From Bacteroidaceae bacterium (GTDB lineage Bacteria > Bacteroidota > Bacteroidia > Bacteroidales > Barnesiellaceae_A), in assembly GCA_017935645.1 (NCBI GenBank), contig JAGBHF010000085.1, positions 1-61,255 of the forward strand: DNA of 61,255 nt, in the 5' to 3' direction. Each line of letters begins with the position of its first letter. The stretch's first letter is position 1. The position numbers and the translations under genes are program-made. The notes beneath the pieces were generated by a model, which was given only the letters and a program-made list of their open reading frames with translations, was not told where the DNA came from and ran no database searches. Below, one piece after another: positions 11,676 through 39,596 of the stretch.

Positions 11676-13286
11676 TTATCTGATAATTATCTTTTGAGCC
11701 TTTTGAGAGTCGTTAGTTGTTACAGTAACGATATAGATACCCTTTTCTATATGACCTAAGTCGACCTTAACAGTACCTTGCACAAGGGTGCTGTTCCATA
11801 CCACTCTACCACAGGTGTCGTATATCGTGAGTATTGTAGTGTGCGATGTGGTGGGTAGATGCAGCATGTTGTCGGCCATGTATATATCGTGGCGGTCGGT
11901 AGCTGTATGTTTTATACTGTTGGCATCGCAGTGTATGCCATAGATATCGGGGATACCATAACCCAAAAATTCGTCGGGGGTGTAGTATTGCGAAGCACCT
12001 CTCTGTACACGATCTATGAGTTCGGCTACACTCCATTCGGGGTGAGCCTGCCACAAGCATGCCATAGCACCGGTCATAAGGGGGGTAGAGTATGAAGTAC
12101 CCGAAACAGATGCTATCATGCCATCGGTGTGTAGTACCTTGGTTTTTGTCGCTCTTGCTACTACGTCGGGCTTGACACGACCGTCGGCAGTGTAACCTAT
12201 ACTGCTAAACTCGCTATGTGTGCCGTCGCTACTGACGCCACCCACCGTGAGTACTCCATTTGCATCTCCAGGTACGACAATCTTATTCCAGTCGGTTCCA
12301 TACTCGTTGCCGGCGGCTGTTACAACCAACATACCCTTGCTTGCCGCAATGGTAGCACCGCGAGAGCAGAAGGCTGTTTGCCCATCTAAATCTTCATGAG
12401 TGTAGCTCATGTCGGGGTCATCGTAGATATAATATCCCAGCGATGAAGTAATAATATCGGCTCCTACACTATCGGCCATTTCGGCGCCGGCTACCCAGTA
12501 GTCTTCTTCTATAGGAAATTCACGATTGTTATCTTCGGTTATCATGAGCCAATAGTTGGCTTCGGGCGCTGTTCCTATATAGGTATTGGGAACATTAGTT
12601 GCCATACATATCAGCACCATCGAGCCGTGGTCGACACCATTGATATAATTAAACGACTTGCGAGTGAAGTCGTGTGTGCCTATGACTTGCGACATGTCGA
12701 TGCCGGCGTTCTGATTGACACAATAAAAGCCTGCATCGAGCACAGCTACAGTCATACCCTTGCCACGGTAGCCCTCCTGATGCAATGGCGCAAGATTGAG
12801 TTGGTTTATCTGTTCCCATGCTGCGCCATAGTAACTTTCCAGCTCTCCTATGTACTCCGTGGTGTCTTCCTCAACGGTTTTTGTGGGCGCATGTTGGGCT
12901 GCAAATGGCGATGATGTTTTGTCGTTTTGTACGCACTCTACCTTCTTAACAAAGGGCAGTTGATAAATCGTGTCTATCGTAACATCCAAGCCGGGTGCAA
13001 TAACGACGGTATTCATCCAGCGCGAGGTTGTGACAATATTAAACCCCAATTCCTTTATCTGTTGTAAGTATGTAGGGCTGACGGGGAGGTCTTCTTCTGT
13101 TATTTCAATATTGCGTAGAGTGCGTCGTTCGATAGCTTTGGCAGAAAGGAATGTTTCGGGTTGTTCGATGTTGTGAGTGTTCTCTGATTTGTCTGTAAGC
13201 CATACGCGATAGCGATTTCTTACTTGGCCTGCTACACAAAGTGTTGTGAACGTGAAAATGAGAATGATTAAAATTCGCTTGTACAT
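11676..13286 (-). CDS. Secreted S8 subtilisin-like protease with T9SS sorting domain
   Basis: A 536-residue exported serine protease. The signal peptide is residues 1-20. The catalytic residues are visible: D184 in VAVLDAGF, H220 in NGVDHGS, N327 in TAAGNEYG and S398 in SGTSYSTP. The C-terminal ~75 residues (LTIYDTCGRVVWN, then GIYIVTVTTN..AQKIIIR) form a type A T9SS sorting domain, so PorU would cleave it and anchor the protein on the cell surface. It overlaps the mnmA stop by 19 nt and abuts xseA, so it sits in an operon of RNA and DNA housekeeping genes. The region between residues 20 and 120 is likely a propeptide. Confidence 0.93.
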   Translation of the reverse strand: MYKRILIILIFTFTTLCVAGQVRNRYRVWLTDKSENTHNIEQPETFLSAKAIERRTLRNIEITEEDLPVSPTYLQQIKELGFNIVTTSRWMNTVVIAPGLDVTIDTIYQLPFVKKVECVQNDKTSSPFAAQHAPTKTVEEDTTEYIGELESYYGAAWEQINQLNLAPLHQEGYRGKGMTVAVLDAGFYCVNQNAGIDMSQVIGTHDFTRKSFNYINGVDHGSMVLICMATNVPNTYIGTAPEANYWLMITEDNNREFPIEEDYWVAGAEMADSVGADIITSSLGYYIYDDPDMSYTHEDLDGQTAFCSRGATIAASKGMLVVTAAGNEYGTDWNKIVVPGDANGVLTVGGVSSDGTHSEFSSIGYTADGRVKPDVVARATKTKVLHTDGMIASVSGTSYSTPLMTGAMACLWQAHPEWSVAELIDRVQRGASQYYTPDEFLGYGIPDIYGIHCDANSIKHTATDRHDIYMADNMLHLPTTSHTTILTIYDTCGRVVWNSTLVQGTVKVDLGHIEKGIYIVTVTTNDSQKAQKIIIR

Positions 13287-16245: not shown

Positions 16246-16722
16246 CTACTTTTCTATGAGTACGACTGCATAAGCCGAGATACCCTCTTCACGACCTGTA
16301 AATCCTAGCTTTTCGGTAGTTGTGGCCTTGATTGAGATGTCGTCGATGTCAATACCCATGCAAGCCGATAAAGCCTCTTTCATGGCAGGTATGTGCGGGT
16401 TGAGCTTGGGGCGTTCGGCGCATATTGTCATGTCGGCATTGCCTATGCGGTAGCCCTTATCGGCCAGCAAGGCGACAACCTTGCGCAACAAAATCTTACT
16501 GTCGATACCGGCATATTCGCCCGCAGTGTCGGGGAAGTGATAACCAATATCGCGCATATTGGCGGCGCCCAATAGAGCATCGCATAGGGCATGTATGAGA
16601 ACATCGGCGTCCGAGTGTCCCAACAAGCCGGCTGTGTGTTCAATGCGCACACCGCCTAACCAAAGGTCGCGACCTTCGACTAAGCGGTGTACATCATATC
16701 CCATACCCACTCTTATCTTCAT
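16246..16722 (-). CDS. ispF: 2-C-methyl-D-erythritol 2,4-cyclodiphosphate synthase
   Basis: A 158-residue IspF of the MEP isoprenoid pathway, cyclising CDP-methylerythritol 2-phosphate. The metal ligands are D10 and H12 (MGYDVHRL), with HSDADVLIHAL and the FPDT motif following; all are intact and the length is normal. It sits 12 nt after porV. It ends with TAG, which shows TAG is used as an ordinary stop in this genome. Confidence 0.97.
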   Translation of the reverse strand: MKIRVGMGYDVHRLVEGRDLWLGGVRIEHTAGLLGHSDADVLIHALCDALLGAANMRDIGYHFPDTAGEYAGIDSKILLRKVVALLADKGYRIGNADMTICAERPKLNPHIPAMKEALSACMGIDIDDISIKATTTEKLGFTGREEGISAYAVVLIEK

Positions 16723-16734
16723 AGGGATTATATT

Positions 16735-17952
16735 TTATCGGATTAGATTCTTTATACCTTCGAGGTCAAATGAGAGAGTGAATCGCAATGTTTGGTCAAG
16801 GGGACTTGATGCGGCTGTTGCCAATAGGTAAGCTGCATCTACTTGCAATACGCTGTATGCAAAGCTGGCTCCGAACGAGAAGAATTGGCGGTTGTCTTTG
16901 TATTCGTCTTCGTAGTAGTAGCCTGCGCGTAGCGAGAATTGACGGTTGTATGAATACTCGATACCTACCGAGAAGTTTATCTCGCGCAACTCTTCTTCAA
17001 AGCCACCGGGGGCATCGTAGAATGACTTGGCAATACCCTCGAAGGGTGACATATTGTAGTATTCGTCACGTGCAGCATTGTAAGCGTCGAAGTCGGTTGT
17101 TCCGTCGGCATTCTTGAATTGGTACTCTTGAGGCATGGTCGGCACAAGCAACTTGTTGGCGTCGAAGCTGATAGACATGGTATTCTTGTCGGCAATGGGG
17201 AAGAGGAATGTTGTTCCTAACTTGAGGTTGGTAGGCAAGAATGCCGGTTCGTTTCCATTGTCGTATGCAAGTTTCGAACCGATGTTAGAGATGTTCATAC
17301 CCCATGTCCATTGGCATTCGTTGCGGGCAATGATAGGATAGCTGGTGTAGTACCATGAGATGTCGGCACCGAAGGCCGATGCACCCTTTACACTACCTGT
17401 GGCACTTCCGCTCTCGTCATATTGAAAGCCCAAGTCGGAGTAGATATAACGTAATACAACACCCATAGAGAAACTCTCTGACAACTTACGCGAGTAACCT
17501 ACGTCTACTGCCATTTCAAAGGGGTTGATGCTGTTTACCTCATCGCCATTTTGGTTGGTGAGGATAATACTACCCAATGAGAAATATCGCAGAGAGGCAC
17601 TCACGGCTTGGGGGCTGCCCTCGCCAAATTTCAAGTAACCACTAAGGTTGGCCAAGTAGATATCATTGACCAACTTGCTCAACCACGGTGTATATGACAA
17701 TCCGATACCGGCATCGCTGAAGGCAAAGGCATACTTTGATGCGTTCCAGAATTGTGAGTTTACGTCGGGGTCGGTCGCAGCACCAATGTCACCCATACCT
17801 GCACCTCGTGCATCGGGGGCGATGGTTAATGATGTAGCACCGCTGTTAACGGGGTTAAATTGTTTTACAACCTCTCCTTGTCCATAGGCATTGATAGTAA
17901 GTATCGCAGCCAATATAAGTGTTACGAATGATATTTTGCTTATCTTGTTCAT
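16735..17952 (-). CDS. porV: Type IX secretion system outer-membrane protein PorV
   Basis: A 405-residue FadL-like beta-barrel that shuttles T9SS cargo from the translocon to the PorU sortase. It has a signal peptide (residues 1-24) and the family-typical N-terminal FLTIAPDARGAGMGD-like motif (SLTIAPDARGAGMGDIG, about 41-57). Tyr- and Gly-rich beta strands run to the C-terminus (LRFTLSFDLEGIKNLIR). It lies 55 nt downstream of a porU-like gene with no promoter between them, consistent with one mRNA. Confidence 0.92.
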   Translation of the reverse strand: MNKISKISFVTLILAAILTINAYGQGEVVKQFNPVNSGATSLTIAPDARGAGMGDIGAATDPDVNSQFWNASKYAFAFSDAGIGLSYTPWLSKLVNDIYLANLSGYLKFGEGSPQAVSASLRYFSLGSIILTNQNGDEVNSINPFEMAVDVGYSRKLSESFSMGVVLRYIYSDLGFQYDESGSATGSVKGASAFGADISWYYTSYPIIARNECQWTWGMNISNIGSKLAYDNGNEPAFLPTNLKLGTTFLFPIADKNTMSISFDANKLLVPTMPQEYQFKNADGTTDFDAYNAARDEYYNMSPFEGIAKSFYDAPGGFEEELREINFSVGIEYSYNRQFSLRAGYYYEDEYKDNRQFFSFGASFAYSVLQVDAAYLLATAASSPLDQTLRFTLSFDLEGIKNLIR

Positions 17953-18007: not shown

Positions 18008-21000
18008 TTATTGCGCAAGAACGATTAATTTTTTCTTTTCTGTTGTAAACTTTTTGTCACCCATGCTTATAAGAGCATATCCGATGTACTCTCCGGGTGT
18101 TATATTTCCACTATTGTCGGTCAAGTTCCACACAATTTCGGTAGCCGATGTTTCGCTTCTCCACACTTCATTGCCGGTAGCTTTGTCGGCTACGATGTAT
18201 TGAATATTCATATCCTGTTCGATAGTACCTACAATACTCAATGTGGCTTGTGTAGTAATGGGGTCTTCTTCGATGTATAGTTCGTATTGGCTATCGGCAT
18301 TATCTTCAACGTAGAATGCTATGGTTATCTCAGCGGCATTGCCTGCATTGTCAAATACCTTGACTGTGGCGTGGTGTGCACCGGCCGAGAGGTTCTTGAA
18401 AGGATAGTTGATGCTACCTTTACCAAATTCGCATGCGGGGCTGTAATATCCTGCCAAGTCGTTGCATACAATCTTGCCATCGAGAAGCATAATCATGCCT
18501 TTTCCGATAGATAGCTCGTTGTGGGTAATGCCACTCTCGCTGTCGTGAATATCGCAGTGGAAAAGTGCATTGGGGGTCACAATACCACCTTCGCTGAAGT
18601 ATTCGTCGCCAATCCAGATGTTTGAAAATTCGGGCGCTGTAACATCGGCAACCGATTCGGCATTGCCGTTTATCACGATGTTTTTGCTGTAGCCGGCAGC
18701 TTCGATGCTCATATCGTTGTTGTAAGAGTAGAGGCTGATAAAGCCCGGCTTATCGCTTTGTAATGTTTGCACCGGCAAGCTGAATGTGGCTGTAAATCGA
18801 CCGTTGACAACCGTGTCGGCAGCTGTTGCCAACTTGTATTGACGCAGGTTAAAGTCCTCTTTAATAGCGATGTTACCCATTGAGGTGCTGATAAACTCTT
18901 GGGCTTGTTTTTTCTCCTCTGCATCATATACCTCGTAGCAGAGTACTCCGTTGTACTCCTCGGCTATCTCACCGTTGAGGTCGTAAATAGCTCCGGTCAA
19001 TGTTACTTGGCTGCCGGCAGGGGTATTTACTTGTGTCGATGAGGTGATGTCTGTTTCATTGATGCTTTCGATAACAATACTGTATGTAGGTAGGGGTATG
19101 GCCAATGCCGGGTCGCCTATCAAGCAGTATTTGAGTTTGTTCGGGTCGCTTGTCAAGTTGCCCTTGTCGTTATACATAAGAGTCTTTTTGGCACGACGCA
19201 TTACGTCGCCAAGTCTTATTTTACCGTCATCGCCCGGGATGTAGAACTCGTGCAACAACTCACGGTTAATATCCTCGTTACCATTGGTGTATACGGTACG
19301 TGTAGTTGTGTAGAGTCCGATAAATCCACCTTTGTCGTTGCGGAATAGCTCTTCACCAACCGAGTTCTCATCCTTGTCAAAGGGGCACACGTCGCAAGTA
19401 GCAGTAATAAATACAGGCCAGATGTCGTTGGTCATCTCCTTGGCGTGTGTGATGTTTATGAGGTCGATACCCAGCGAAGTGTGACCGGCATGTCCCATAT
19501 AGCTATAAATCATAGTGCCTTCCTCAAGGTCGCGGAATATCTGTTCTTGTGCACCCTCAAATTGTGCACCGGTGCGCGAATTGTATGCTCCCAAATATAT
19601 CTTGTCAATGATGACATGTTCCTGTTCTTTCTCAACCGACTCCATCGACACAGTATTCATTTGGTGAATGTGCAAGTTGTTATCGCCATTAAGACCTATA
19701 AAGCATGCTTTATTCTTCCATAAGTTCTTGATGGGCTTTTGGTTGATATAGGTAATCAACTTGTTGTACACCTTTTGCGATTCTTCCATGTTCTTGACAG
19801 GAATACGACCAATACTTAGGTTTATCTCTTCCATGGTGATGTCTATACCGGTATTATCACCCAGTATACCGAAGTAATCGTCAGTGATGTATGAATAGCG
19901 TTGGTCAGTACTGCTTTCCGATTGGTATGAAACCAACAAGCGATTGTCTTCGTTGTGTAATGTAGGGCTGATAGCTCGGTTGTTGTATGAGCTGCGACCA
20001 TATAGGAGCAGGTAACGAGGCTGATCGCCATATCCGGCATTGGCTCGGTCGTAGAACATCTTCATCATGCGACGAATGGCTGTTGCATCGGGATTACCGG
20101 CCGAGAATTCATTAAATACAGCAAGTTGTTCACATACCAGCACCTTCATGTTGTCGTTGTCGCGGTGTAGTTGAGCTATTCTCTCGGCCTCCTTGATAAA
20201 TGTGCGAGTGGTAACAATAACCATGTCGGGTATGTAATCGATGCCGTGTAAGTTCTGATTTTCTACATTGCATACGAATTGAGGTGTGGCCAGTGCTTGA
20301 GTGATATCGAATGCTACATACTCATTGTCCGATGTTGGGGTGAACGCCACCTTGTTATCTACCACCGAGGTCTTTTGGATAGCGGGCTTATTTACATTGG
20401 TTACATCCCATACGCGAATGTTGTTGCTGTTGCGACCATTGATGTCAATGGCGAAATAGCCTTCCTCAACATTGCTACGACGGAAGTGCAAGGGGATGCT
20501 ATCGATAGCAAGGCGACGGGGGTAGAACAGTCGTACATAATCGAGGTAAAAACTCTTGATAGAGCCTGATGATATGGTCTTGAACGTAAGAACAAGATTG
20601 TCTTGGGCATCGATGGTGTAGTAGTTACTACCGAGCTTGAGATATGAATATGAATCGGATGCACCTACTGACATATTGGGTGTAAGTGCCGACCCATTAC
20701 AATCGGTTGAAATCTTGCATGTAGATGTGCTGTTTACTCCCACTGCTGCATACAGGGTTATTTTGTCACCATCCACTCCCGGGACATTGATAGTAATGGA
20801 GTTATTATTGACAAGATCTTCACCCAAATAAAGGCGACCGGTCTGTCCTACGCAAATAATATCATTTTCGTATAGTGCATGTTCGTCGAATGTAGTAATT
20901 GCAGTACCGCTGCTCAATGGAGTATCAATCTCTTGCAACTTTACTTGTTCCTTATCCTCGGTAAGGAAGTAGTAGTAAAGGTTGGTGTAGTAGTTGTTGG

Positions 21001-21388
21001 TGTGCTTGTAGTATTCGTCATCCTTTTCCCATTGAACACCACCCGATGCGTAGAAGTAGAGATCACCGTTCTCGATATGCACGGGCAGGGGAGTCAAGTC
21101 GTCGCTATCCTCGGTGCTGAATGTCTCGGGCAACATATATCCATCCTTACCATAAATGCTCACCTTTGAGGCATCGGTAAAACCCCAACTTTGCAAGGTC
21201 GCGGCATCGATGCGATGTATGCCTTTATCGGTAGTTGATATTTTTACCCACTTGCCACTACTCAATACCGACTGCTCGGCATAGTGACTTGTAGGAAGTG
21301 ACAATGCCTGAAGTGTGGTAATGATAGCTACAAACGACGTGGCTATATAACGTGTGAAGATGTGTCGATGGCGGTTGAAGTGTATCAT
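18008..21388 (-). CDS. Divergent PorU-like C25 sortase paralogue
   Basis: A 1126-residue exported protein with the gingipain-like (C25) fold of PorU. Signal peptide about 1-31; N-terminal beta domain; catalytic H633 in MGHAGHTSLG and C665 in ITATCDVCPFD; then immunoglobulin-like domains and an FlgD-like C-terminal domain. The canonical PorU (23481-26948) has GWTAE after the His and ATCDFSRYD at the Cys; here both stretches differ. Catalytic His and Cys remain, so it may be active with another specificity or a partner role. It lies 12 nt after the FAH gene and directly upstream of porV, the place where a canonical porU would be expected. Confidence 0.88.
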   Translation of the reverse strand: MIHFNRHRHIFTRYIATSFVAIITTLQALSLPTSHYAEQSVLSSGKWVKISTTDKGIHRIDAATLQSWGFTDASKVSIYGKDGYMLPETFSTEDSDDLTPLPVHIENGDLYFYASGGVQWEKDDEYYKHTNNYYTNLYYYFLTEDKEQVKLQEIDTPLSSGTAITTFDEHALYENDIICVGQTGRLYLGEDLVNNNSITINVPGVDGDKITLYAAVGVNSTSTCKISTDCNGSALTPNMSVGASDSYSYLKLGSNYYTIDAQDNLVLTFKTISSGSIKSFYLDYVRLFYPRRLAIDSIPLHFRRSNVEEGYFAIDINGRNSNNIRVWDVTNVNKPAIQKTSVVDNKVAFTPTSDNEYVAFDITQALATPQFVCNVENQNLHGIDYIPDMVIVTTRTFIKEAERIAQLHRDNDNMKVLVCEQLAVFNEFSAGNPDATAIRRMMKMFYDRANAGYGDQPRYLLLYGRSSYNNRAISPTLHNEDNRLLVSYQSESSTDQRYSYITDDYFGILGDNTGIDITMEEINLSIGRIPVKNMEESQKVYNKLITYINQKPIKNLWKNKACFIGLNGDNNLHIHQMNTVSMESVEKEQEHVIIDKIYLGAYNSRTGAQFEGAQEQIFRDLEEGTMIYSYMGHAGHTSLGIDLINITHAKEMTNDIWPVFITATCDVCPFDKDENSVGEELFRNDKGGFIGLYTTTRTVYTNGNEDINRELLHEFYIPGDDGKIRLGDVMRRAKKTLMYNDKGNLTSDPNKLKYCLIGDPALAIPLPTYSIVIESINETDITSSTQVNTPAGSQVTLTGAIYDLNGEIAEEYNGVLCYEVYDAEEKKQAQEFISTSMGNIAIKEDFNLRQYKLATAADTVVNGRFTATFSLPVQTLQSDKPGFISLYSYNNDMSIEAAGYSKNIVINGNAESVADVTAPEFSNIWIGDEYFSEGGIVTPNALFHCDIHDSESGITHNELSIGKGMIMLLDGKIVCNDLAGYYSPACEFGKGSINYPFKNLSAGAHHATVKVFDNAGNAAEITIAFYVEDNADSQYELYIEEDPITTQATLSIVGTIEQDMNIQYIVADKATGNEVWRSETSATEIVWNLTDNSGNITPGEYIGYALISMGDKKFTTEKKKLIVLAQ

Positions 21389-21400
21389 CGGTATATGATT

Positions 21401-22015
21401 TTATTTAATATTAAATTCCAAAACTTTCTTCTCTCCTAAGTATCCTGTAATATGGTCATCGATAGCCACGGGTCCCACACCGGCAGGAGTACCGGTATAT
21501 AGTATATCGCCCATCTTAAGAGTGAAAAATTGGCTAACGTATGCAATGAGCTTGTCGATGCTATGTATCATGTCGCGGGTATTGCCACTTTGCACGGTTG
21601 TGCCGTTGAGTTGCAGTGTGAAGTCGATGCCGGTTTCCAATGGCAACTCTTCTTTAGGAATCCATGTACCTATGGCAGCCGAGCCGTCAAAGCCCTTGGC
21701 GAGTTCCCATGGAGCACCTGCTTGGCGCAACTCTTGTTGCAAGTCGCGAGCAGTAAAGTCGACACCCAACGTGAGGGCATCGTAGTATCGATGTGCAAAT
21801 CGAGGTGCTACATTCTTACCTACGCGACAAATGCGTACTACAACCTCGGCTTCATGTTCGATGCGATTGCTGAATGGCGGGAGAAACAATGGCTTTCCGT
21901 CCTTGAGCAATGCGGTTTCGGGTTTGAGAAACACTACCGGATTGCCACAATCTTCTTTGCGTCCCATTTCGGTGTTGTGTGCGCGATAATTCCAGCCTAC
22001 TGCTATGATTTTCAT
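21401..22015 (-). CDS. Fumarylacetoacetate hydrolase-family protein
   Basis: A 204-residue enzyme of the FAH superfamily (acylpyruvate hydrolases, oxaloacetate decarboxylases and related). The metal-binding signature is visible as HEAEVVV (about 55-61) and GVDFTARDLQ (about 85-95), with the conserved Gly-Asp-Ile-Leu-Tyr-Thr-Gly-Thr-Pro-Gly loop (GDILYTGTPAGVG) near 170-182. The start overlaps the rex stop by 4 nt. FAH-family hydrolases and Rex together hint at redox-responsive carbon metabolism, but the substrate is not defined. Confidence 0.9.
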   Translation of the reverse strand: MKIIAVGWNYRAHNTEMGRKEDCGNPVVFLKPETALLKDGKPLFLPPFSNRIEHEAEVVVRICRVGKNVAPRFAHRYYDALTLGVDFTARDLQQELRQAGAPWELAKGFDGSAAIGTWIPKEELPLETGIDFTLQLNGTTVQSGNTRDMIHSIDKLIAYVSQFFTLKMGDILYTGTPAGVGPVAIDDHITGYLGEKKVLEFNIK

Positions 22016-22671
22016 TTTTCTTCTTCTCCTCTGATGTTATTAAGACGATTGAACATGACAGCCAAATGTGCATATATCGAAGTATCTTGTATAACGATAT
22101 GCTTGGGTGCTTGCAGGCGATAGGGCGTGAAATTCCATATAGCCTTTATGCCGTTGGCTATCATATAGTCGGCACATTCTTGGGCTTTCTCGACAGGTAC
22201 TGTAAGTATGCCTATTTGAGCATCAAGTTCTTCTCTTTTCTTGCTGAATTCATTGACACTGTAGAGGGGTATGCCATTGATGTTATTTTGTTTCATGGCA
22301 CGAACATCAAATCCGGCTACAATTTCCAATCCGTATTGTGCCAAACCTGAGTCATGCATCAGTGCCGCGCCCAATCGACCTACACCATATACAATAGCTT
22401 TGTGTTGCGAGTTAAATCCCAAGAAATGTTCCAATACATTTACCAGAGTGTTTACCTCATAGCCCACCCTCGTTTTGCCCGAAATGTTGACAAATGAGAG
22501 GTCTTTGGCTATTTGCGAAGCGTCTACATTGATAGCCTTGGCTATCTGTGTCGATGATATATGTTCTACACCTTGTGCTTGCATAATTTTTACGTATGCC
22601 AAGTACCAAGGTAACCTATGCAGGGTAGGCTCCGGTAGCTTAATGATTGTGTGAAGTGCTGGTGTAGTCAT
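22012..22671 (-). CDS. rex: Redox-sensing transcriptional repressor Rex
   Basis: A 219-residue Rex, a winged-helix repressor that senses NADH/NAD+. The N-terminal HTH (LPWYLAYVKIM..ISSTQIAKAINVDASQIAKDLSFV) is followed by a Rossmann domain with GVGRLGAAL. I chose the ATG at 22671 over 22695 because the promoter just upstream would start transcription near 22693, leaving the longer form without a leader. It is first of the run rex-FAH-porU-like-porV-ispF, so Rex may regulate that operon. Confidence 0.92.
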   Translation of the reverse strand: MTTPALHTIIKLPEPTLHRLPWYLAYVKIMQAQGVEHISSTQIAKAINVDASQIAKDLSFVNISGKTRVGYEVNTLVNVLEHFLGFNSQHKAIVYGVGRLGAALMHDSGLAQYGLEIVAGFDVRAMKQNNINGIPLYSVNEFSKKREELDAQIGILTVPVEKAQECADYMIANGIKAIWNFTPYRLQAPKHIVIQDTSIYAHLAVMFNRLNNIRGEEEK

Positions 22672-22699
22672 ATACAATAAAGCAATATTATTCAAGATG

Positions 22700-22731
22700 C
22701 AAAGATAGTGAAAGGTGAGAGAAGATACAAA
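22700..22731 (-). promoter_or_regulatory. rex promoter in repeat copy 1
   Basis: TTTG (22728-22731), 20 nt, TATCTTTG (22700-22707) on the minus strand. Copy 2 of the repeat holds an identical pair (TTTG 22807-22810, TATCTTTG 22779-22786). Copy 3 has TATCTTTC, a degraded box. The rex operon thus has at least two tandem promoters 79 nt apart. Confidence 0.75.
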
Positions 22732-22907
22732 TCAAACTTGTTTGAATTTGTATTTTCCGAACCGCATCCTATATTATCCAAAGATAGTGAAAGGTGAGAG
22801 AAGATACAAATCAAACCTGTTTGAATTTGTATTTTCCGAACCGCATCCTATATTATTGAAAGATAGTGAAAGGTGAGAGAAGAAACAAATCAAACTTGTT
22901 TGAATTT
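22701..22907. repeat. Tandem 79-bp promoter-bearing repeats (2 full, 1 partial)
   Basis: Units start at 22701, 22780 and 22859, an exact 79-bp period; the third ends near 22907. Each has GATAGTGAAAGGTGAGAGAA, a CAAACTTGTTTG palindrome and, in the first two, a TTTTCCGAACCGCATCC tail. Copies 1 and 2 are almost identical. Confidence 0.85.
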
Positions 22908-22911
22908 TTTC

Positions 22912-23380
22912 ACGGGTGAATTAAGATAAAAGATATGCACCCCCCGCACTTCGTGCCTGCGGCACTCGTATGGGGTTATTATATTTCGGGCATAAAGCCC
23001 CTCAACCCGTGCTTCGCACGATTATCTTATTATAGACAAAAGAATTTCACCCACAAAAAATATGTTCCTTATGTTCTTATGTCTTAATAAATTGTCCTCT
23101 TGTCGGGCATGCGGACGCAATGGAATTGTGTCCCTATGTGAGAGGATATCTCACACCCCTCAACCCGTGCTCCGCACGTATTATCACCTCGCCTGAGATA
23201 ACACGGACGCAATGGAATTGCAATGTGGCTTCGCCCAAGCTGCTCTTGCTCGACAAAGCGCATACAAGCAGGCTCTGCACTCGCTTAATCACAACAGCGC
23301 CCTACGTGTGGATGGTATATTTTTCCTCCTCTGCTCGTAGAGATAGGGGAGGTGGGCAACGCCCGGAGGGGTTAAAATAG
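22912..23380. repeat. Non-coding block with nested direct and inverted repeats
   Basis: No credible gene. GGGTGAATTAAGATAA (22914-22930) and TTATCTT..AATTTCACCC (about 23024-23054) are inverted ends of a 140-nt element. CCCCTCAACCCGTGCTTCGC recurs at 22998 and, with one change, at 23156; each copy has a CGTGC/GCACG palindrome. CGGACGCAATGGAATTG occurs at 23112 and 23204. CCTCCTCTGCTCG near 23331 pairs with downstream GAG..GGGGAGG. The block resembles decayed mobile or REP-like palindromic elements. Confidence 0.55.
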
Positions 23381-23413
23381 TTCGTTAACAAACATCCACT
23401 ACTCAATGCGAGG

Positions 23414-23453
23414 ACTCCCCCTGTATTTTCCACGCGGAAAACACAGGGGGAGA
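23414..23453 (-). terminator. Long hairpin downstream of porU
   Basis: Arms of 17 nt (CTCCCCCTGTATTTTCC and GGAAAACACAGGGGGAG, one mismatch) with an ACGC loop, about 30 nt past the porU stop. There is no T-run on the minus strand, so it may act as an mRNA 3' stabiliser or Rho-assisted stop rather than a classical terminator. Confidence 0.55.
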
Positions 23454-23480
23454 AAAGGATATCACGTGTGTTATGCGATT

Positions 23481-26400
23481 CTATCGGGTGGGGGCAACCA
23501 ATAGTTTTTGGGCTTTGGTCGAGGTGTGTACGTTATCGGTTGAGATAGTGGCTCGGTATAGATATACACCGCCGGGTACTTTTGCACCTCCGCTGTTGGT
23601 GAGGTTCCATGTGATGGGGAAGCTCTTGAACATGTTTGATACACCCGACTTTTGGGTGTGCCATACAGGCATACCATTGATATTGTATATCGTGAGAGTG
23701 ACGGTAATGGTTTCGTCGGGTTGGTCGTGTTCGATGAAGAAGTTGGTTGATGTACGGGCGGGATTTTGGTCGGCATATACTTTGACAATCTCCGGAGCTT
23801 TACCTACTTGTACAGTGAATGCCAAATGTACCGTTGATGAGTTGCCCTCATTATCCCACACGCGCAACTTGAGTGTATGTTCGCCTTCGTCAAGGTCGTT
23901 GATAGGATAGCATATCACACCCGATATACCGGTAGTGTCGGGGGTATAGTAGTCGCTAACGTCGGTAAATGATAGTGTCTCGTCGATGGTTATCGTCATG
24001 TTGTGTCCTATACCGGCGGTAGAGATATTGATGCCCGATGAGTCGCTAATGGCTGCAACGAGCATGGGCGATTCGTTGATAATATCGCCATCGCTGAAGT
24101 CGACCGAATTGAGGTAGCAATATGTTATATCGGGGCCTATGGTGTCTGTAGTGGCGGTATTCACGGTTTTACCTATCTTAAAGTCGGTGCATATACCGCT
24201 TGCTTCGTCGCCTTCAAGATTGTATGCATAGAAGTCAAATCGACCCTCTTTGTTTGAGTAGCTGGTCTCTTTGGGCATATTGAATGTTATCTTGAACTGT
24301 CCATTCTCCACCTTGGTACGTCCCATAAAGAGCTTATTGTTACGTTCGGTGAACTCTACTTGCGGGCAGTCGTCATAGCCGTTTGAGAGTGTGATTTTCT
24401 CGGCATCGTATAGTGTGATGTGTACTTCACCGTTGAAGTCGGGTGCTGCCTTGCCATCGGGGGTAAGTATGCAACCCTCCAAGGTTACTTTTGTGCTGGC
24501 GTTTAAGGTTATCTCGTTGCCTATTTCTACGCCATTGATAGATATAGCCTTGGCCTGATGTGTGGGGTAGCCTAATCGCATGGCCGGGTCGCCCAACAAG
24601 GCATACACGAGCTTGTTGCTATCGGGCGAGTAGTGTGAGGGCGATTCTTTATAAAGGTTGGAAATATAGTTCTTACCCTTCTTTACAATGTCGCCCAATC
24701 GGTTGTATTGGCTGTCATCGTTGCGTTCAAAGAGGTATTCGCCTATGGCGTTGGAGAGGCGACCGTTTTCGTTAATCCATGCTACGCGCGTTGATGATAA
24801 TAGGGCTATTGCACCACCTTGCTCGTTGAGGAAGAAGTATTCGCCACCCGAAGTCTCTTCCGAGTCGTAACGGCTGAAGTCGCATGTCGCCGTAAACATG
24901 AACGGCAGATTTTTGAGATACAACGATTTGATGTCATTGATGTTAAGAAGGTCTTCGGCTGTCCATCCTACCGAGTTGGCATGGCCTATATAGTTGAGTA
25001 CCAACTGTCCTTCCTTGAGCAATCGCATCATTTGCTTCTTGGCCTCGGGGAAGGTTCGACCGGTCGAGGTGTTCTCCTCCTTGTATGCGTCAAGATATAT
25101 CTTGTTGACAAACAAGTCGGGCTTGTCTTTGAGCCAATATGAAATGGCGCTTTCGGCCTGTCGCATGTGTGTGTTGGAGTTACCATCATCGGCTATGACA
25201 ATGGCTTGGTTGCGCCAATTACCATAGTTGGGTTTATTGACATAATTGTAGAGTTTCTCTACCACTATATCGGCCTCCTCATTGCTCTTTACCGGAAATC
25301 GTCCTACCGATATATTCATGAAATTAATGCTGTTCTTACCCGTTGTGGCGTCTTCGAGATAGGTGAAGAAGTCGTCGCTTGTATAGGAGTATGTCTCGTT
25401 CTCACTACGGGGGCTTTGGTAGGTGAGCAGTGTTTGATAGTTACACTTTTTTATTTCGGCCGTTACGCGACGGTTGTCGTAAAATCCTCGACCGAACAAT
25501 AAGAGATATTGTGTTTGACGTCCGTTGGGGTTGGCCAATGAACGGTCGTAGAACATCTTCATGAAACGACGATATGCTACTGCATCGGGTGTTCCCGACG
25601 AGAACTCGTTGAATACCAAGTCATGATTAACAACATGTACCAGCATCGAGTCGACACTCTCGTGTAGTGCCGCCACTTGTTGTGCTTGTGTCATGAATTG
25701 CGCCGGAGCCAATATGACCATATCGGGAGTTTCCAATGCGTGCAAGTCCTGATTGGCTATGCTGCCGACACCGGTGGGGGTGGGGAACGTTGCCGTGGGG
25801 TTGAATGCTACATATTCTCGTTGCATCATGATCGGGCTGAATGTTGCAATATCGTTGGTAACTGTTGTTGTAACATTCATGGGTGCATGGGGTGTGGTTA
25901 CATCCCATACGATACATTGCTCGGTCATGCCTGCTATGGCAAAGCTCTGTCCGGCTGTGAAGTTGAAGACCCTGAATTGTACCGAGCCGTTGTATAATTG
26001 CAACTTACGCTTGTACGATAAGCGTATGTAGTCGAGGTTGGCATTAATCGTTGTACCACCGGTTTTATATGTCAAGGAGAACTCCTCTTTGCCACCACGC
26101 GGGGTTGTTGTGACCGATGGGGTTATGTACTTCATGAACTCGTAGGTCATGTCGCGGTTGGTAGCAATATCCCATTGTGCATCTTGCGATAGGAGAGTAC
26201 CATTGTGGTATAATCGTAACGAACCGGTAGAGGCAATAATCTTTGCACCGAACGCTACATCAACTCTCATAGGTGAGAGAAGGTCGATACCGGGTATGTC
26301 GAACGAGAAAGTGCGTGTTTGTGTGAAACGGAAATCTTCTCCAAGGAATATCTGACCGGTCTTGCTTACCGATACAAGTTCTTCCTCGTGTAGCGAGTAT

Positions 26401-26948
26401 CCGTCATACATTTCCACTTGTTCACCGGTAGGGTTTGGGTTGAGGGGGGCTTCCTCTGTTGAGCAGGCATCGGTACTACTCTCGGTTATAAAGTAATAAC
26501 CGGCTGTCGAATAGGTGTTTTGCTTATGACGTACGCTACCCTGTTTCTCGTCATACATCCATTTGATAGTACCTTGTGCGTAGAAAAGAATACGGTCGTT
26601 GCTGTGTACGACAGGTATTTGGGGCAGGTCGTCAATATCGTTGTTGCTATATACCTCGGGAAGAACGTTACCACCATAGCCATATATACGTACTTCGGTG
26701 GGGTTGTTAAATCCCCAACTCTTCAGTTGCGAGTAGCTTATCTGATATATACCACTGTTGGTGACAGCTATCTTGTACCATTTGCCGGTACTCAATACCG
26801 AGTGTGAGGCGTAGTGCTCAACAGGCAATGCCATCGTGTGGGGGGTGCAGATGCTTGCTGTCAAGAGTATAACAAGTAATATTGTGATACTCCTGATAGA
26901 GGTTATATAGTGTTGTGCGTTGTTGTTCAATCTCATTGTTATGCTCAT
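23481..26948 (-). CDS. porU: Type IX secretion system sortase PorU (canonical)
   Basis: A 1155-residue C25-type cysteine protease that removes the C-terminal signal of T9SS cargo and attaches the cargo to anionic lipopolysaccharide. Signal peptide about 1-40; catalytic H655 in YIGHANSVGWTAE and C689 in FTATCDFSRYD, both in the sequence context expected for PorU. The C-terminal part has Ig-like domains and a sorting-domain-like end (IYNINGMPVW, GGVYLYRATI). It stands alone, separated from porV by the repeat block, rex, FAH and the divergent paralogue. A weak -7 box TAAATTTG lies at 26997-27004 on the minus strand. Confidence 0.92.
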   Translation of the reverse strand: MSITMRLNNNAQHYITSIRSITILLVILLTASICTPHTMALPVEHYASHSVLSTGKWYKIAVTNSGIYQISYSQLKSWGFNNPTEVRIYGYGGNVLPEVYSNNDIDDLPQIPVVHSNDRILFYAQGTIKWMYDEKQGSVRHKQNTYSTAGYYFITESSTDACSTEEAPLNPNPTGEQVEMYDGYSLHEEELVSVSKTGQIFLGEDFRFTQTRTFSFDIPGIDLLSPMRVDVAFGAKIIASTGSLRLYHNGTLLSQDAQWDIATNRDMTYEFMKYITPSVTTTPRGGKEEFSLTYKTGGTTINANLDYIRLSYKRKLQLYNGSVQFRVFNFTAGQSFAIAGMTEQCIVWDVTTPHAPMNVTTTVTNDIATFSPIMMQREYVAFNPTATFPTPTGVGSIANQDLHALETPDMVILAPAQFMTQAQQVAALHESVDSMLVHVVNHDLVFNEFSSGTPDAVAYRRFMKMFYDRSLANPNGRQTQYLLLFGRGFYDNRRVTAEIKKCNYQTLLTYQSPRSENETYSYTSDDFFTYLEDATTGKNSINFMNISVGRFPVKSNEEADIVVEKLYNYVNKPNYGNWRNQAIVIADDGNSNTHMRQAESAISYWLKDKPDLFVNKIYLDAYKEENTSTGRTFPEAKKQMMRLLKEGQLVLNYIGHANSVGWTAEDLLNINDIKSLYLKNLPFMFTATCDFSRYDSEETSGGEYFFLNEQGGAIALLSSTRVAWINENGRLSNAIGEYLFERNDDSQYNRLGDIVKKGKNYISNLYKESPSHYSPDSNKLVYALLGDPAMRLGYPTHQAKAISINGVEIGNEITLNASTKVTLEGCILTPDGKAAPDFNGEVHITLYDAEKITLSNGYDDCPQVEFTERNNKLFMGRTKVENGQFKITFNMPKETSYSNKEGRFDFYAYNLEGDEASGICTDFKIGKTVNTATTDTIGPDITYCYLNSVDFSDGDIINESPMLVAAISDSSGINISTAGIGHNMTITIDETLSFTDVSDYYTPDTTGISGVICYPINDLDEGEHTLKLRVWDNEGNSSTVHLAFTVQVGKAPEIVKVYADQNPARTSTNFFIEHDQPDETITVTLTIYNINGMPVWHTQKSGVSNMFKSFPITWNLTNSGGAKVPGGVYLYRATISTDNVHTSTKAQKLLVAPTR

Positions 26949-27424: not shown

Positions 27425-27439
27425 AAAGGGTTGCAAACA

Positions 27440-30400
27440 ATGCTCAACGTATACAAGGCTTCGGCCGGTTCGGGAAAGACCTATAGGCTTGCCTATGAGT
27501 ATATAAAGATGCTGTTGGGTCGTCGCAGTGAGAGTGGCGATCATTATCAATTTTATCAGAACTATAACAATCCGCATCGTCGCATCTTGGCAGTAACCTT
27601 TACCAACAAGGCTACCGAGGAGATGAAACAGCGTATTGTTAAGCAACTCGAAGTATTGGCTCACAATACCTCGAAGTCGGATTATTGCCGTGATTTGTGT
27701 CGGGCATTTAATTGTAGCGAAACACAATTGCGTAATAATGCCGAGCTGGTACTTGAGCAGTTGTTGCACGACTTTTCATATTTCAATATCTCTACCATCG
27801 ATAGTTTTTTTCAACAGGTACTACGTGCATTTGCTCGCGAAGTGGGTTTGCAAGGTGGGTACGAGGTGGAGATGGACTCGGACTATGTGACTCAGGCCGC
27901 CATTGAGCAGATGTTTGGCGAGTTGGAAGACAACCCCGAGCGGCTCGAATGGCTCAAACAGTATGCCGAGGAGAATATTCGCAATGGTGGTAATTGGAAT
28001 ATATTCGGTAGTTCCGATATATCGGCATTGGCCAAGCAACTCGAAAAGGAGGAGTATAAAAAGTACCGCGAGAAATTGGCTGAACATGATTTGCAATCGT
28101 ACAAGGAGTATATCGACAGTCTTACGGCGCATCGTCAGTCTATTCGTGATGGTATAGTTGCCGCTGCCCACAATGTGTTGCAGGCAATATCGCATGAGGG
28201 TATTGATACCGAGGTGTTTATGCGTGGTTGGATTAAGTGCGTAAATACTATAACGCTCGACGCTGACTCGGTAGGTGATAAGGAGTGGGATCGTGCTATA
28301 CAAAGTTTTCTTAAGTATTTTGACAAGCCCGATGGCTGGTTTGCTGCTTCGAAACTTAAAAAGCATCCCAAGAGTGTCGAAGAACTCACCCACAATCTAA
28401 TGCCTGCATTTGAGGCTCTTGCTCATCAAGTACAGCAGCACTATAAAGAGTATATCTCAGTACCTATCTGCCTCAAACATATATATGCGTTGGGCGTGCT
28501 CTCTACCATCGACCGATATGTGTCGCAGTATGAGCGTGAGCACAACAGTATTCTTCTATCAAAGACCGCCGACATATTGAGTGGGCTTATTAATGAAAGT
28601 GACACCCCATTTATATACGAAAAAGTGGGTACTCGCATAGAGCATTATATGATTGATGAGTTTCAAGATACCTCCCATTTACAGTGGCGCAATTTTGAAC
28701 CTCTGGTAAGTGAGAGCCTTTCGCGAAATAGTGAAAATCTGATAGTGGGTGACGTTAAACAAAGTATCTATCGTTGGCGTAACTCCGACTGGCGACTGCT
28801 TCATGAAGAACTTGATAAAAAATTCAGTTACAGTGAAATAAATGCAGGTCGCGACACCAATTGGCGCAGTTGTGCCAATGTGGTGAATTTTAACAACACC
28901 TTCTTTAAGCGAGCCTCCTTGTTGTTGCAGAATGATATAGAGACAGCCTTGAAGGAGCATTCCATCACTCACCTCAATCCTATAATAAAGCAGGTGTTTG
29001 ACAACGTTGCGCAGAACGTATCACCTAAGCACCTCGACCATTCGGGACGTGTAGCCATCAATGTAATGACGGTGGATAATGTCGACGATTTTGAGGAACG
29101 AGTTATGCGTCGTCTGCCCGACACCATACGCTCGCTCATGGCTAAGGGGTATAGACAGAAAGACATAGCATTTCTCGTTCGCACTCGTGAGGAGGGTCGC
29201 AAGATTGTCGAGTTGCTATTGGCTCTCACAGCCGAGGGCGAAGAGTCTTTGAGCGACTTACGAGTCGTATCGGACGAGTCGTTGCTCATATCCAACGCCC
29301 CGCCGGTGAAGCTTATTGTGGGTATATTGCGGTATTTACAAAATCCCTCATATCCCATTAATGAGCTGATATTGTCGTATGAATATGGTCTGATGGGCGA
29401 AGAACAAGGTGTATCTCCCTCGCAAGTACTTGCCGAGTACTTTGATTGTCGTGACGGCGAAAACAACTTTGATAGTGAGTTGCAATCCTTCATTGACGAC
29501 ATTGCGTCGAAACCTCTCTTTGAGATGTGTGAGCGTATTATTCATAAGTTTAATATGCACGAGCACACGGCTCATGTGGGTTATGTCGAGGCCTTTCAGG
29601 ACTTGGTCGTAGAGTATTGTCAGACACATTCGGCCGACCTCTATTCGTTCCTGCGTTGGTGGAGTGAAAAGGAGAAAACGGCAGCTGTCAAGTTGCCCGA
29701 AAATCTTGATGCCATTACCGTTATGACCATTCACAAGTCGAAGGGACTGGAATTTCCCGTTGTGATACTGCCCTTTGCTACATGGAAGTTTACGTCGCAT
29801 GGTGGCTATACGCCTTCACTCAAGTGGTATGTGCCTCAGGGTGAGCCTTTCAATCGCCTTCCTATTCTGCCGGTTAATTACGATGCCAAGTTGGCGTCTT
29901 CGATATTTGCATCGCAGTATTATGAGGAACTTATCAACGAGTATATCGATTGTCTTAATCTTACATACGTCGCCTTTACACGCGCCGAGCAGGAGCTTAT
30001 AGCCTACACCTATGTGCGTGCCAAGGGTGCAAACACTTCTATCGGTTCGTTGATAAAAAATGTGCTTGATATGCCTCCCGAAATAGGGGGTGAGGATATG
30101 GACTTTGCTCCTTATGTGCGTCATGATGAGGCTGCAGAGGGCGGGAACGATGAGTGGATATTTGAGATAGGAGCCGATTGGATGCCTATCTTCGAGTCAG
30201 CACCTATGGCGCAAATGCTGGATGTCAATTATCATGTAGTGATACCATCGGAGCAACGATTGAAACAACGACTTACAGCGCATAACAAAAGTGGTAACCG
30301 CATGCGCAATTATGGTATCTTGATGCACGAGATTTTGTCCGAAATTGTGTGTGTGGATGATGTACATAATGTAGTGCAACGTTATGTTCGCGAGGGTAAG

Positions 30401-30727
30401 CTAAAGAGTGCCCAATGGCGTGACATGGAGGAGAAGATTGTACGATTGATTACCATGCCACAAACAAGTCGATGGTTTGCCCCTGATGTACATGTAATAA
30501 CCGAGACGGATATACTCAAGTCGGGCGAGAAAATCAATCGTCCCGACCGCGTGGTTATAGACGGTGATATTGTTACGGTTATCGATTATAAGTTTGGTCA
30601 AGTAGAACGTGGCGACTACAAGAGCAAGGTGTCGAAGTATATGCAGCTTGTCCGCGATATGGGTTACAGTAAGGTCGTAGGCTGTGTATGGTATGTCGAG
30701 AAAGATAAGTTCGTAGCAGTAGAATAA
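27440..30727 (+). CDS. UvrD-family helicase with PD-(D/E)XK nuclease domain (RecB/AddA-like)
   Basis: A 1095-residue superfamily 1A helicase-nuclease for double-strand-break processing. Visible motifs: Walker A KASAGSGKT near residue 6; Walker B MIDEFQDTS near 403; GDVKQSIYRWR near 437; motif V MTIHKSKGLEFPVVIL near 762; motif VI YVAFTRAEQEL near 842; and a C-terminal nuclease VIDYKFGQ near 1047. I prefer the ATG at 27440 (AGAAAGGG lies upstream) over a TTG at 27431. In many Bacteroidetes the AddB-like partner is adjacent; here the next gene is the convergent nuoN, so any partner lies elsewhere. Confidence 0.92.
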   Translation: MLNVYKASAGSGKTYRLAYEYIKMLLGRRSESGDHYQFYQNYNNPHRRILAVTFTNKATEEMKQRIVKQLEVLAHNTSKSDYCRDLCRAFNCSETQLRNNAELVLEQLLHDFSYFNISTIDSFFQQVLRAFAREVGLQGGYEVEMDSDYVTQAAIEQMFGELEDNPERLEWLKQYAEENIRNGGNWNIFGSSDISALAKQLEKEEYKKYREKLAEHDLQSYKEYIDSLTAHRQSIRDGIVAAAHNVLQAISHEGIDTEVFMRGWIKCVNTITLDADSVGDKEWDRAIQSFLKYFDKPDGWFAASKLKKHPKSVEELTHNLMPAFEALAHQVQQHYKEYISVPICLKHIYALGVLSTIDRYVSQYEREHNSILLSKTADILSGLINESDTPFIYEKVGTRIEHYMIDEFQDTSHLQWRNFEPLVSESLSRNSENLIVGDVKQSIYRWRNSDWRLLHEELDKKFSYSEINAGRDTNWRSCANVVNFNNTFFKRASLLLQNDIETALKEHSITHLNPIIKQVFDNVAQNVSPKHLDHSGRVAINVMTVDNVDDFEERVMRRLPDTIRSLMAKGYRQKDIAFLVRTREEGRKIVELLLALTAEGEESLSDLRVVSDESLLISNAPPVKLIVGILRYLQNPSYPINELILSYEYGLMGEEQGVSPSQVLAEYFDCRDGENNFDSELQSFIDDIASKPLFEMCERIIHKFNMHEHTAHVGYVEAFQDLVVEYCQTHSADLYSFLRWWSEKEKTAAVKLPENLDAITVMTIHKSKGLEFPVVILPFATWKFTSHGGYTPSLKWYVPQGEPFNRLPILPVNYDAKLASSIFASQYYEELINEYIDCLNLTYVAFTRAEQELIAYTYVRAKGANTSIGSLIKNVLDMPPEIGGEDMDFAPYVRHDEAAEGGNDEWIFEIGADWMPIFESAPMAQMLDVNYHVVIPSEQRLKQRLTAHNKSGNRMRNYGILMHEILSEIVCVDDVHNVVQRYVREGKLKSAQWRDMEEKIVRLITMPQTSRWFAPDVHVITETDILKSGEKINRPDRVVIDGDIVTVIDYKFGQVERGDYKSKVSKYMQLVRDMGYSKVVGCVWYVEKDKFVAVE

Positions 30728-38018: not shown

Positions 38019-39596
38019 TTATGCCTTATAGCGGTTTGCAACTTCTTTTGCTACCTCGGTGAGTTTTGCGCCAATCTCATCGGTGAGATTACCTTTCTTC
38101 AACTCGTCGAGTACATCGGCTTGGTGCTTGGTGTGAAGAATTTGTACAAATAGTTTCTCAAATTCTCCAACTTTATCGGCAGGAACGTTCGATAGCAATC
38201 CTTGAGTACCGCAGTAGATAATAGCAATCTCTTCCTCGACAGGAACAGGGCTATATTGCGGTTGGATGAGCATGCGTTCGTTCTTGCGACCCTTGTCGAT
38301 AACCATTGCGGTTACGGGGTCAATATCGCCACCAAATTGTGTGAATGACTCAAGCTCGCGGAATTGTGCTTGGTCAATCTTCAACGTACCGGCAATCTTC
38401 TTCATCGCCTTGAGCTGTGCACTACCACCTACACGCGATACCGAAATACCTACGTTGATAGCGGGGCGTACACCTTGGTTGAAGAGTTTCGACTCAAGGA
38501 ATATCTGACCGTCGGTAATAGAGATTACGTTGGTGGGGATGTATGCCGATACGTCACCGGCTTGGGTCTCGATGATGGGCAGCGCTGTGAGCGAGCCACC
38601 ACCTTTTACCATAGGCTTCAATACCTCGGGCAAGTCGTTCATTGATGCCGCAACCTTATCGTTGTCGATAATCTTGGCCGAACGCTACAACAAGCGCGAG
38701 TGGAGATAGAAAATGTCACCGGGATAAGCTTCACGACCCGAGGGACGACGCAAGATGAGCGAAATCTCACGGTACGATACAGCTTGTTTCGACAAGTCAT
38801 CGTAGATAACAAGGGCATGACGACCCGAGTCGCGGAAGTACTCGCCGATAGCGGCACCTGCCATAGGTGCATAGTAACGCATGGCAGCCGAGTCAGAGGC
38901 ATTGGCTGCCAATACGATAGTATAGTCCATAGCACCATGTTCGCGCAAGGTGTTTACCAATGCTGCTACTGATGAAGCCTTTTGACCTATCGCAACGTAG
39001 ATACAGTAGAGGGGCTTGCCGTTCTTGAAGTTTTCACGTTGATTGATGATAGTGTCTATAGCAATTGTTGTTTTTCCTACTTGACGGTCACCGATAATCA
39101 ACTCACGTTGTCCACGACCTATGGGTACCATGGCGTCGATAGCCTTGATACCTGTTTGAAGAGGCTCTTTAACGGGTTGTCGGAAGATAACACCGGGAGC
39201 TTTACGGTCGAGGGGCATCAACAGAGTCTTGCCTTCGATAGGACCTTTGCCGTCGATAGGATCGCCGAGTGTGTTGATAACACGACCCAACAAACCCTCA
39301 CCTACAGGAATAGAGGCGATGTCACCGGTACGGCGCACAGTCATATTCTCAGTAACCTTTTCGATATCGTTCAGAAGTATCACACCCACGTTGCTCTCCT
39401 CGAGGTTCATGGCTACACCGCGTACACCGTTTTCAAACTCTACGAGTTCGCTTGCCTTAACATTATCAAGGCCGTATACGTGTGCCACACCGTCACCTAC
39501 TTCGAGCACGGTTCCTATCTCTTCAAAGCCGGCTTGTTTGTCAACTTCTTCGAGTTTGCTTTTGAGTATATCCGATATCTCGTTTGGTTTTATCAT
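38019..39596 (-). CDS. atpA: ATP synthase alpha subunit, interrupted by in-frame TAG
   Basis: Reading straight through gives 525 codons, the normal length of F1 alpha. Walker A GDRQVGKT is at residues 169-176, and the C-terminal half carries the arginine-finger segment ([15 protein letters not shown]). At codon 304 (38685-38687) a TAG replaces the Glu of the conserved SRLLER. The frame does not change: 14 sense codons lead to the next ATG at 38642. A single G-to-T change explains it. The gene is otherwise intact and the neighbours look functional, so a sequencing or assembly error or a strain mutation is more likely than decay. The literal reading is two products, 303 and 207 aa. Confidence 0.93.

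Follow-up and report, generated by a model that had tools for sequence, protein, structure and literature searches.

The stretch of DNA analysed here (the window, 61,255 nucleotides) was found to carry two PorU genes of the T9SS, a canonical one (PorUa) and a divergent one (PorUb), and PorUb is, on the trees, a separate clade that goes back to one old duplication of porU. The PorUb branch is old, widespread and sometimes multiplied in gut Bacteroidales. PorUb is likely to be catalytically active and to have specialised on some of the exported proteins. The search of the open literature, outside which most subscription papers lie, yielded neither a description of a second PorU of this kind nor any work on PorU in Muribaculaceae. 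Both forms are named PorU by the NCBIfam model, so the split between PorUa and PorUb is hidden. If the reading is true, gut commensals with this deep, maintained and sometimes multiplied second branch of PorU would have more than one enzyme able to sort T9SS cargo, and with two natural active sites in one cell it becomes testable what decides between release, anchoring and another fate.

Both PorU ORFs of the window are intact, open and full-length (Table 1). The minus-strand order is PorUa, rex, FAH hydrolase, PorUb, porV and ispF. The FAH and PorUb genes are separated by 12 bp and the PorUb stop from the porV start by 55 bp, while about 0.8 kb lies between PorUa and rex; because of this tight spacing, as against the PorUa gap, PorUb looks like a member of a rex-FAH-porV unit. 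A further T9SS cargo gene of the window (49414-51237, minus strand) encodes a protein of 607 aa whose type A CTD is accompanied by a weak carbohydrate-binding match. The third peptidase C25 protein of the genome (L003 1054-3261, G000:C79) has 735 aa, is not a full-length PorU and adjoins a protein whose tail resembles a type A CTD. The window also holds an ATP synthase alpha subunit gene (38019-39596, minus strand) with one in-frame stop after codon 303 and both halves otherwise intact, which may be a genuine nonsense mutation or a fault of the assembly. A 542-aa ORF within the respiratory complex I cluster (44980-46608, minus strand) resembles a putative NuoC-NuoD fusion.

Table 1. Features at and near the two PorU genes of the window
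Feature	Position	Strand	Evidence or detail
PorUb, divergent full-length PorU, 1126 aa	18008..21388	-	C25 domain at residues 389-763
PorUa, canonical full-length PorU, 1155 aa	23481..26948	-	His656/Cys689, GWTAE, FSRYD
porV (PorV/LptO, T9SS shuttle and PorU anchor)	16735..17952	-	PF19572, 9e-68
ispF, downstream of porV, conserved across Bacteroidales	16246..16722	-	named from sequence and synteny
FAH-family hydrolase	21401..22015	-	PF01557; synteny
rex-type redox repressor gene, overlapping the FAH start	22012..22695	-	PF06971, PF02629; synteny
UvrD/AddA-type helicase, divergent from PorUa	27431..30727	+	PF00580; synteny
S8 peptidase with type A CTD (Por_Secre_tail), T9SS cargo gene near the locus	11676..13286	-	PF00082, PF18962, TIGR04183

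The identity of both proteins was examined with the NCBIfam PorU profile NF033707 (equivalog cut-off 420 bits), which PorUb passed at 767.8 bits, covering positions 1-1095 of 1095, and PorUa at 1039.3 bits. The C25 domain of PorUb matched PF01364 (1.6e-81). Full-length alignment to P. gingivalis PorU (6za2) gave 8e-123 for PorUb, aligned to its own last residue, and 7e-180 for PorUa; the two proteins are 34% identical to each other. The AlphaFold2 models had a pLDDT of 88 and pTM of 0.80 for PorUb and a pLDDT of 89 and pTM of 0.84 for PorUa, and the best PDB fold match of both was 6za2, followed by RgpB and Kgp, with 1.6e-84 for the PorUb model. The whole-chain TM-score against 6za2 was about 0.5 with high rmsd, alike for both predicted models, which suggests a differing domain arrangement in both. 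Bit score, C25 dyad, a multidomain fold ending in a CTD beta-sandwich and adjacency to porV place PorUb within PorU. The claim of the first-pass annotation that two PorU-type proteins of 1126 and 1155 aa are encoded, one of them beside porV, is in agreement with NF033707, the 6za2 alignment and PF19572. PorU2 (NF052324, cut-off 450 bits) was tried as an identity of PorUb and rejected at 104.1 bits; PorUa is likewise no PorU2 (132 bits).

The motifs described earlier for the two proteins were recovered, GHANSVGWTAED and ATCDFSRYD in the 1155-aa PorUa and GHAGHTSLGIDL and ATCDVCPFD in the 1126-aa PorUb. The claim that both keep His and Cys was borne out by alignment, in which His633/Cys665 of PorUb and His656/Cys689 of PorUa align with H657/C690 of P. 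gingivalis PorU, where C690 is the catalytic Cys (PMC5121618). The alignment revealed both residues in 138 of 138 PorU examined, among them 46 of 46 PorUb. Loss of the dyad in the Barnesiella copies was considered and rejected, the alignment showing His and Cys kept.

The canonical surround of the active site (a Glu following the GH motif, [DE]F.R.D following the Cys, and ADDG) was not found in PorUb of the window's family; this surround is common and not defining for PorU, as 6 of 56 outgroup PorU are also without the Glu. The Glu of GWTAE is lost in PorUb of the window's family in 9/9 genomes and absent from 28 of the 30 Muribaculaceae PorUb, while all seven Barnesiella PorUb (7/7) have it; 10 of 19 PorUa-type copies of Muribaculaceae lack it as well. 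Phe691 and Arg693 of PorUa are replaced by Val and Pro in PorUb throughout the window's family (FSRYD to VCPFD, 9/9). The ADDG segment reads GLNG (GLNGD) in the window's PorUb, and its Asp587, 99% conserved in canonical PorU, is Leu, Phe or Tyr in PorUb of the family (9/9). The view of the divergent PorU as a peculiarity of this genome does not hold, since the form is shared with Barnesiella and Muribaculaceae. Glu loss occurs elsewhere too, for instance in some of the canonical-type Muribaculaceae copies. One PorU copy each of G150 and G037 is also without the motif Glu.

The profile alignment puts the catalytic acids of the gingipains, RgpB E152 and Kgp D388, at most a few residues away from the ADDG segment. 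The activity of PorUb could be reduced, because the near-invariant Asp587, near the aligned gingipain acid, is replaced. The neighbouring Asp569 is kept in PorUb in 9/9 genomes of the window's family, and therefore loss of the catalytic acid in PorUb is not claimed here. An exact assignment of the catalytic acid was set aside, alignment to within a few residues of ADDG being too imprecise for it.

These observations bear on a different role for PorUb, mainly as a partner or regulator of PorUa, in which a heterodimer with little catalysis by PorUb would control activation of PorUa or its placement on PorV. This role, which we consider unlikely, is consistent with the title of the closest solved structure, 6za2, 'dimeric latent PorU' (P. 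gingivalis PorU being a latent dimer in the crystal), with the position of PorUb next to porV, and with a multidomain fold that is whole while the active-site surround varies, Asp587, the motif Glu and Arg693 all being changed in the window's family. A purely structural partner needs neither His nor Cys, however, and such a role is disfavoured because both are retained in every PorUb despite fast evolution elsewhere in the protein; two to three tandem PorUb per PorUa also fit a 1:1 partner badly.

The phylogeny of PorU, proposed earlier as a check on whether the second form is a clade, was built as trees of 90 PorU (containing no Muribaculaceae copies) and 138 PorU, a mixture-model tree of 59 and a further tree with an AU test. 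The porV-adjacent copies of the window's family, Barnesiella and Muribaculaceae fell on one side of a branch with a support of 93-98 (SH-aLRT 93-97 in the three trees that include Muribaculaceae), so that the second form is a clade, shared among the three. The PorUa copies of the same three families made another group (support 99), and PorUa and PorUb together were split from the PorU of other families (support 99.7). A duplication within the window's family alone was rejected, forcing its PorUa and PorUb together giving a p-AU of 0.008.

Gene order agrees independently with the clade drawn from the trees. The layout PorUa-rex-FAH-PorUb-porV-ispF is common to the window's family, Barnesiella and Muribaculaceae, with 1-3 PorUb in a row in the last, and in the window's family and Barnesiella the place of PorUa is flagged by the helicase gene. 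In the outgroups (e.g. Parabacteroides, Paludibacter, Dysgonomonadaceae) only one PorU is present, placed between FAH and porV; PorUb therefore occupies the ancestral porU slot, and PorUa has been relocated. The first-pass annotation had treated the version beside porV as the divergent one; it is divergent in sequence, but the ancestral slot is its own and it is the canonical PorUa that moved.

Each of the nine genomes of the window's family, which consists of a single genus, has both PorUa and PorUb (9/9), which puts the pair well beyond chance. Identity is 55-80% among the PorUb orthologs and about 35% between the PorUa forms and PorUb. The named relatives comprise MAGs from the ruminant rectum, labelled Bacteroidaceae, and an uncultured Barnesiella. 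PorUb is lost, apparently cleanly, in one Barnesiella relative (G215, L080 6168-6421), where about 250 bp without any PorU ORF separate FAH from porV. Tandems of two to three PorUb after PorUa were seen in the Muribaculaceae-family loci L235 (G313), L245 (G350), L254 (G334), L237 (G384), L246 (G412) and L253 (G406); the same genomes also have 2-3 PorZ genes, adjoining on one contig in several.

A sample of the order, comprising 109 genomes at nearly one per family, had PorU above the cut-off in 98. In about a quarter of these, PorU was present in two or more copies of close to full length, which frequently lay in tandem, so that Bacteroidales with a second PorU are not rare. The sample also contained PorU-related proteins of about 1650 aa with low scores, which may be candidates for the PorU2 type. 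Tandem PorU-PorU arrangements occur in other Bacteroidales families at L091 (G107), L092 (G126), L090 (G047), L087 (G103), L083 (G011) and L097 (G150), most of the six being followed by porV. These copies lie outside the PorUb clade, and PorU has thus been duplicated several times.

Selective constraint was estimated as dN/dS by the Nei-Gojobori method against the nearest genomes. The close pairs of the window's family gave 0.074-0.098 for PorUb, 0.054-0.071 for PorUa and 0.019 for PorV, and the values in Barnesiella were 0.20 for PorUb and 0.12 for PorUa. The identity of the closest pair was 80.4% for PorUb as against 89.1% for PorUa. PorUb is faster-evolving than PorUa, yet clearly constrained. 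The faster rate (80 against 89% identity in that pair) and the loss in G215 would suit a redundant or dosage copy with the function of PorUa that drifts under relaxed constraint. Such a copy is highly improbable in view of a protein only 34% identical to PorUa that is present in 9/9 family genomes, in Barnesiella and in most sampled Muribaculaceae, with dN/dS of 0.07-0.10 in the window's family and changes fixed by clade (VCPFD in 9/9). The idea of a pseudogene or of an assembly or annotation artefact draws on the sequence divergence of PorUb and nothing more; against it stand a frame open in every genome checked, low dN/dS, the same synteny in independent assemblies and a confident full-length model, and it can for practical purposes be dismissed. 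The first-pass annotation had named a place inside normal PorU with the same cleft, or a lineage-specific pseudogene, as findings that would tell against its proposal; PorUb instead forms a clade of its own under purifying selection, with an active-site surround unlike canonical PorU.

The association of extra PorU with cargo was examined in 118 Muribaculaceae genomes, 24 with one PorU match and 94 with at least two, where matches may include fragments. The median number of type A CTD proteins was 8.5 with one PorU and 15 with two or more (p 2e-4), and within genera the genomes with at least two PorU had on average 3.8 more such proteins (permutation p 0.004); counts near 44 in this family are to be read as at least that number. 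PorZ at 2-3 copies was found in 23 of the 94 genomes with at least two PorU and in 0/24 with one (Fisher p 0.0036), the extra PorZ being notable in genus g195, which has PorUb arrays. The cargo and PorZ statistics are correlations over related genomes, counted as partly independent, and the associations with extra PorU are suggestive only. The expectation that larger PorUb arrays go with more cargo was not borne out, genus g195 having the largest arrays and few type A cargos (8-16). Three genomes of the window's family had type A CTD counts of 57-69; among Barnesiella relatives, 38 matches were found in the one without PorUb (G215) compared with 57 and 70 in two keeping it.

One PorQ above the family cut-off was found in each of 16 genomes tested, independent of PorUb. 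PorUb as a stand-in for a missing PorQ or PorZ was rejected, both being present in 16/16. A role of PorUb for type B cargo found no support, 16 of 17 genomes having a single type B CTD whether or not PorUb is present; the type B CTD counts of these 17 genomes gave no support to a type A/type B split between the PorU forms. PorZ and PorQ are single in the window's family and in Barnesiella, and a complete second complex is therefore not evident there. Of the earlier proposal that the second PorU handles a subset of cargo, the subset itself is indirectly favoured by the cargo and PorZ counts (correlative, in Muribaculaceae), while a division along type A and type B is not.

PorZ presents A-LPS to PorU (PMC8545088), and cleavage by PorU with release and cleavage with anchoring have both been described (PMC11285876). 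The latter, together with the altered surround of the catalytic Cys and His, would allow PorUb to be an active C25 release peptidase for CTDs or other surface proteins, with no joining to A-LPS and thus not a sortase. We regard this as rather improbable; the tie to extra PorZ, the A-LPS supplier, points to anchoring, in some Muribaculaceae only.

The reading favoured here, to which we give about an even chance, is that PorUb is an active, faster-evolving PorU for a subset of type A cargo, forming a parallel attachment complex beside PorUa. For PorUb we infer activity, a transpeptidase nature and the cargo split. The porU gene would have been duplicated once, in an ancestor common to Barnesiella, Muribaculaceae and the window's family. 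Of the two copies, the one that stayed next to porV would have become PorUb, with faster evolution and an altered active-site surround, and the one placed between rex and the helicase gene would have become PorUa and retained the canonical sequence. PorUb would be exported like PorU and held at the surface by PorV, and with the same Cys/His chemistry it may cleave the CTDs of some type A cargo proteins, which would then be released or joined to an acceptor sugar by PorUb, the PorUa complex alongside handling the remaining cargo. A broader version, which we hold only tentatively, is that at least two sortase routes operate within a single T9SS in Barnesiellaceae, Muribaculaceae and the window's family, PorUa serving general cargo and PorUb directing defined groups of surface proteins to another anchor or fate; it includes the PorUb of some Muribaculaceae at 2-3 copies with PorZ copies of their own. 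These routes may be likened to the division of labour among the sortase classes of Gram-positive bacteria.

Among known systems, PorU of P. gingivalis (PG0026; 6za2; NF033707) resembles PorUb in length, full-length alignment, C25 domain, His/Cys dyad, C-terminal beta-sandwich and a porV-adjacent gene. Unlike it, PorUb belongs to a separate paralog clade and coexists with a canonical PorU, and in the window's family it is without the motif Glu and the acid residue of ADDG and has VCPFD after the Cys. PorU2 (NF052324), a putative T9SS sortase, is likewise a PorU-related second C25 protein of Bacteroidota. The gingipains RgpB and Kgp (peptidase family C25) share with PorUb the catalytic domain fold, the GH motif and the Cys, but they are cargo peptidases and the likeness is limited to the C25 domain, with no full-length alignment. 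PorZ is similar in belonging to the attachment complex at the surface and in having an uncleaved CTD, and in Muribaculaceae its copy number tracks that of PorU; it differs from PorUb as a beta-propeller protein without a peptidase domain.
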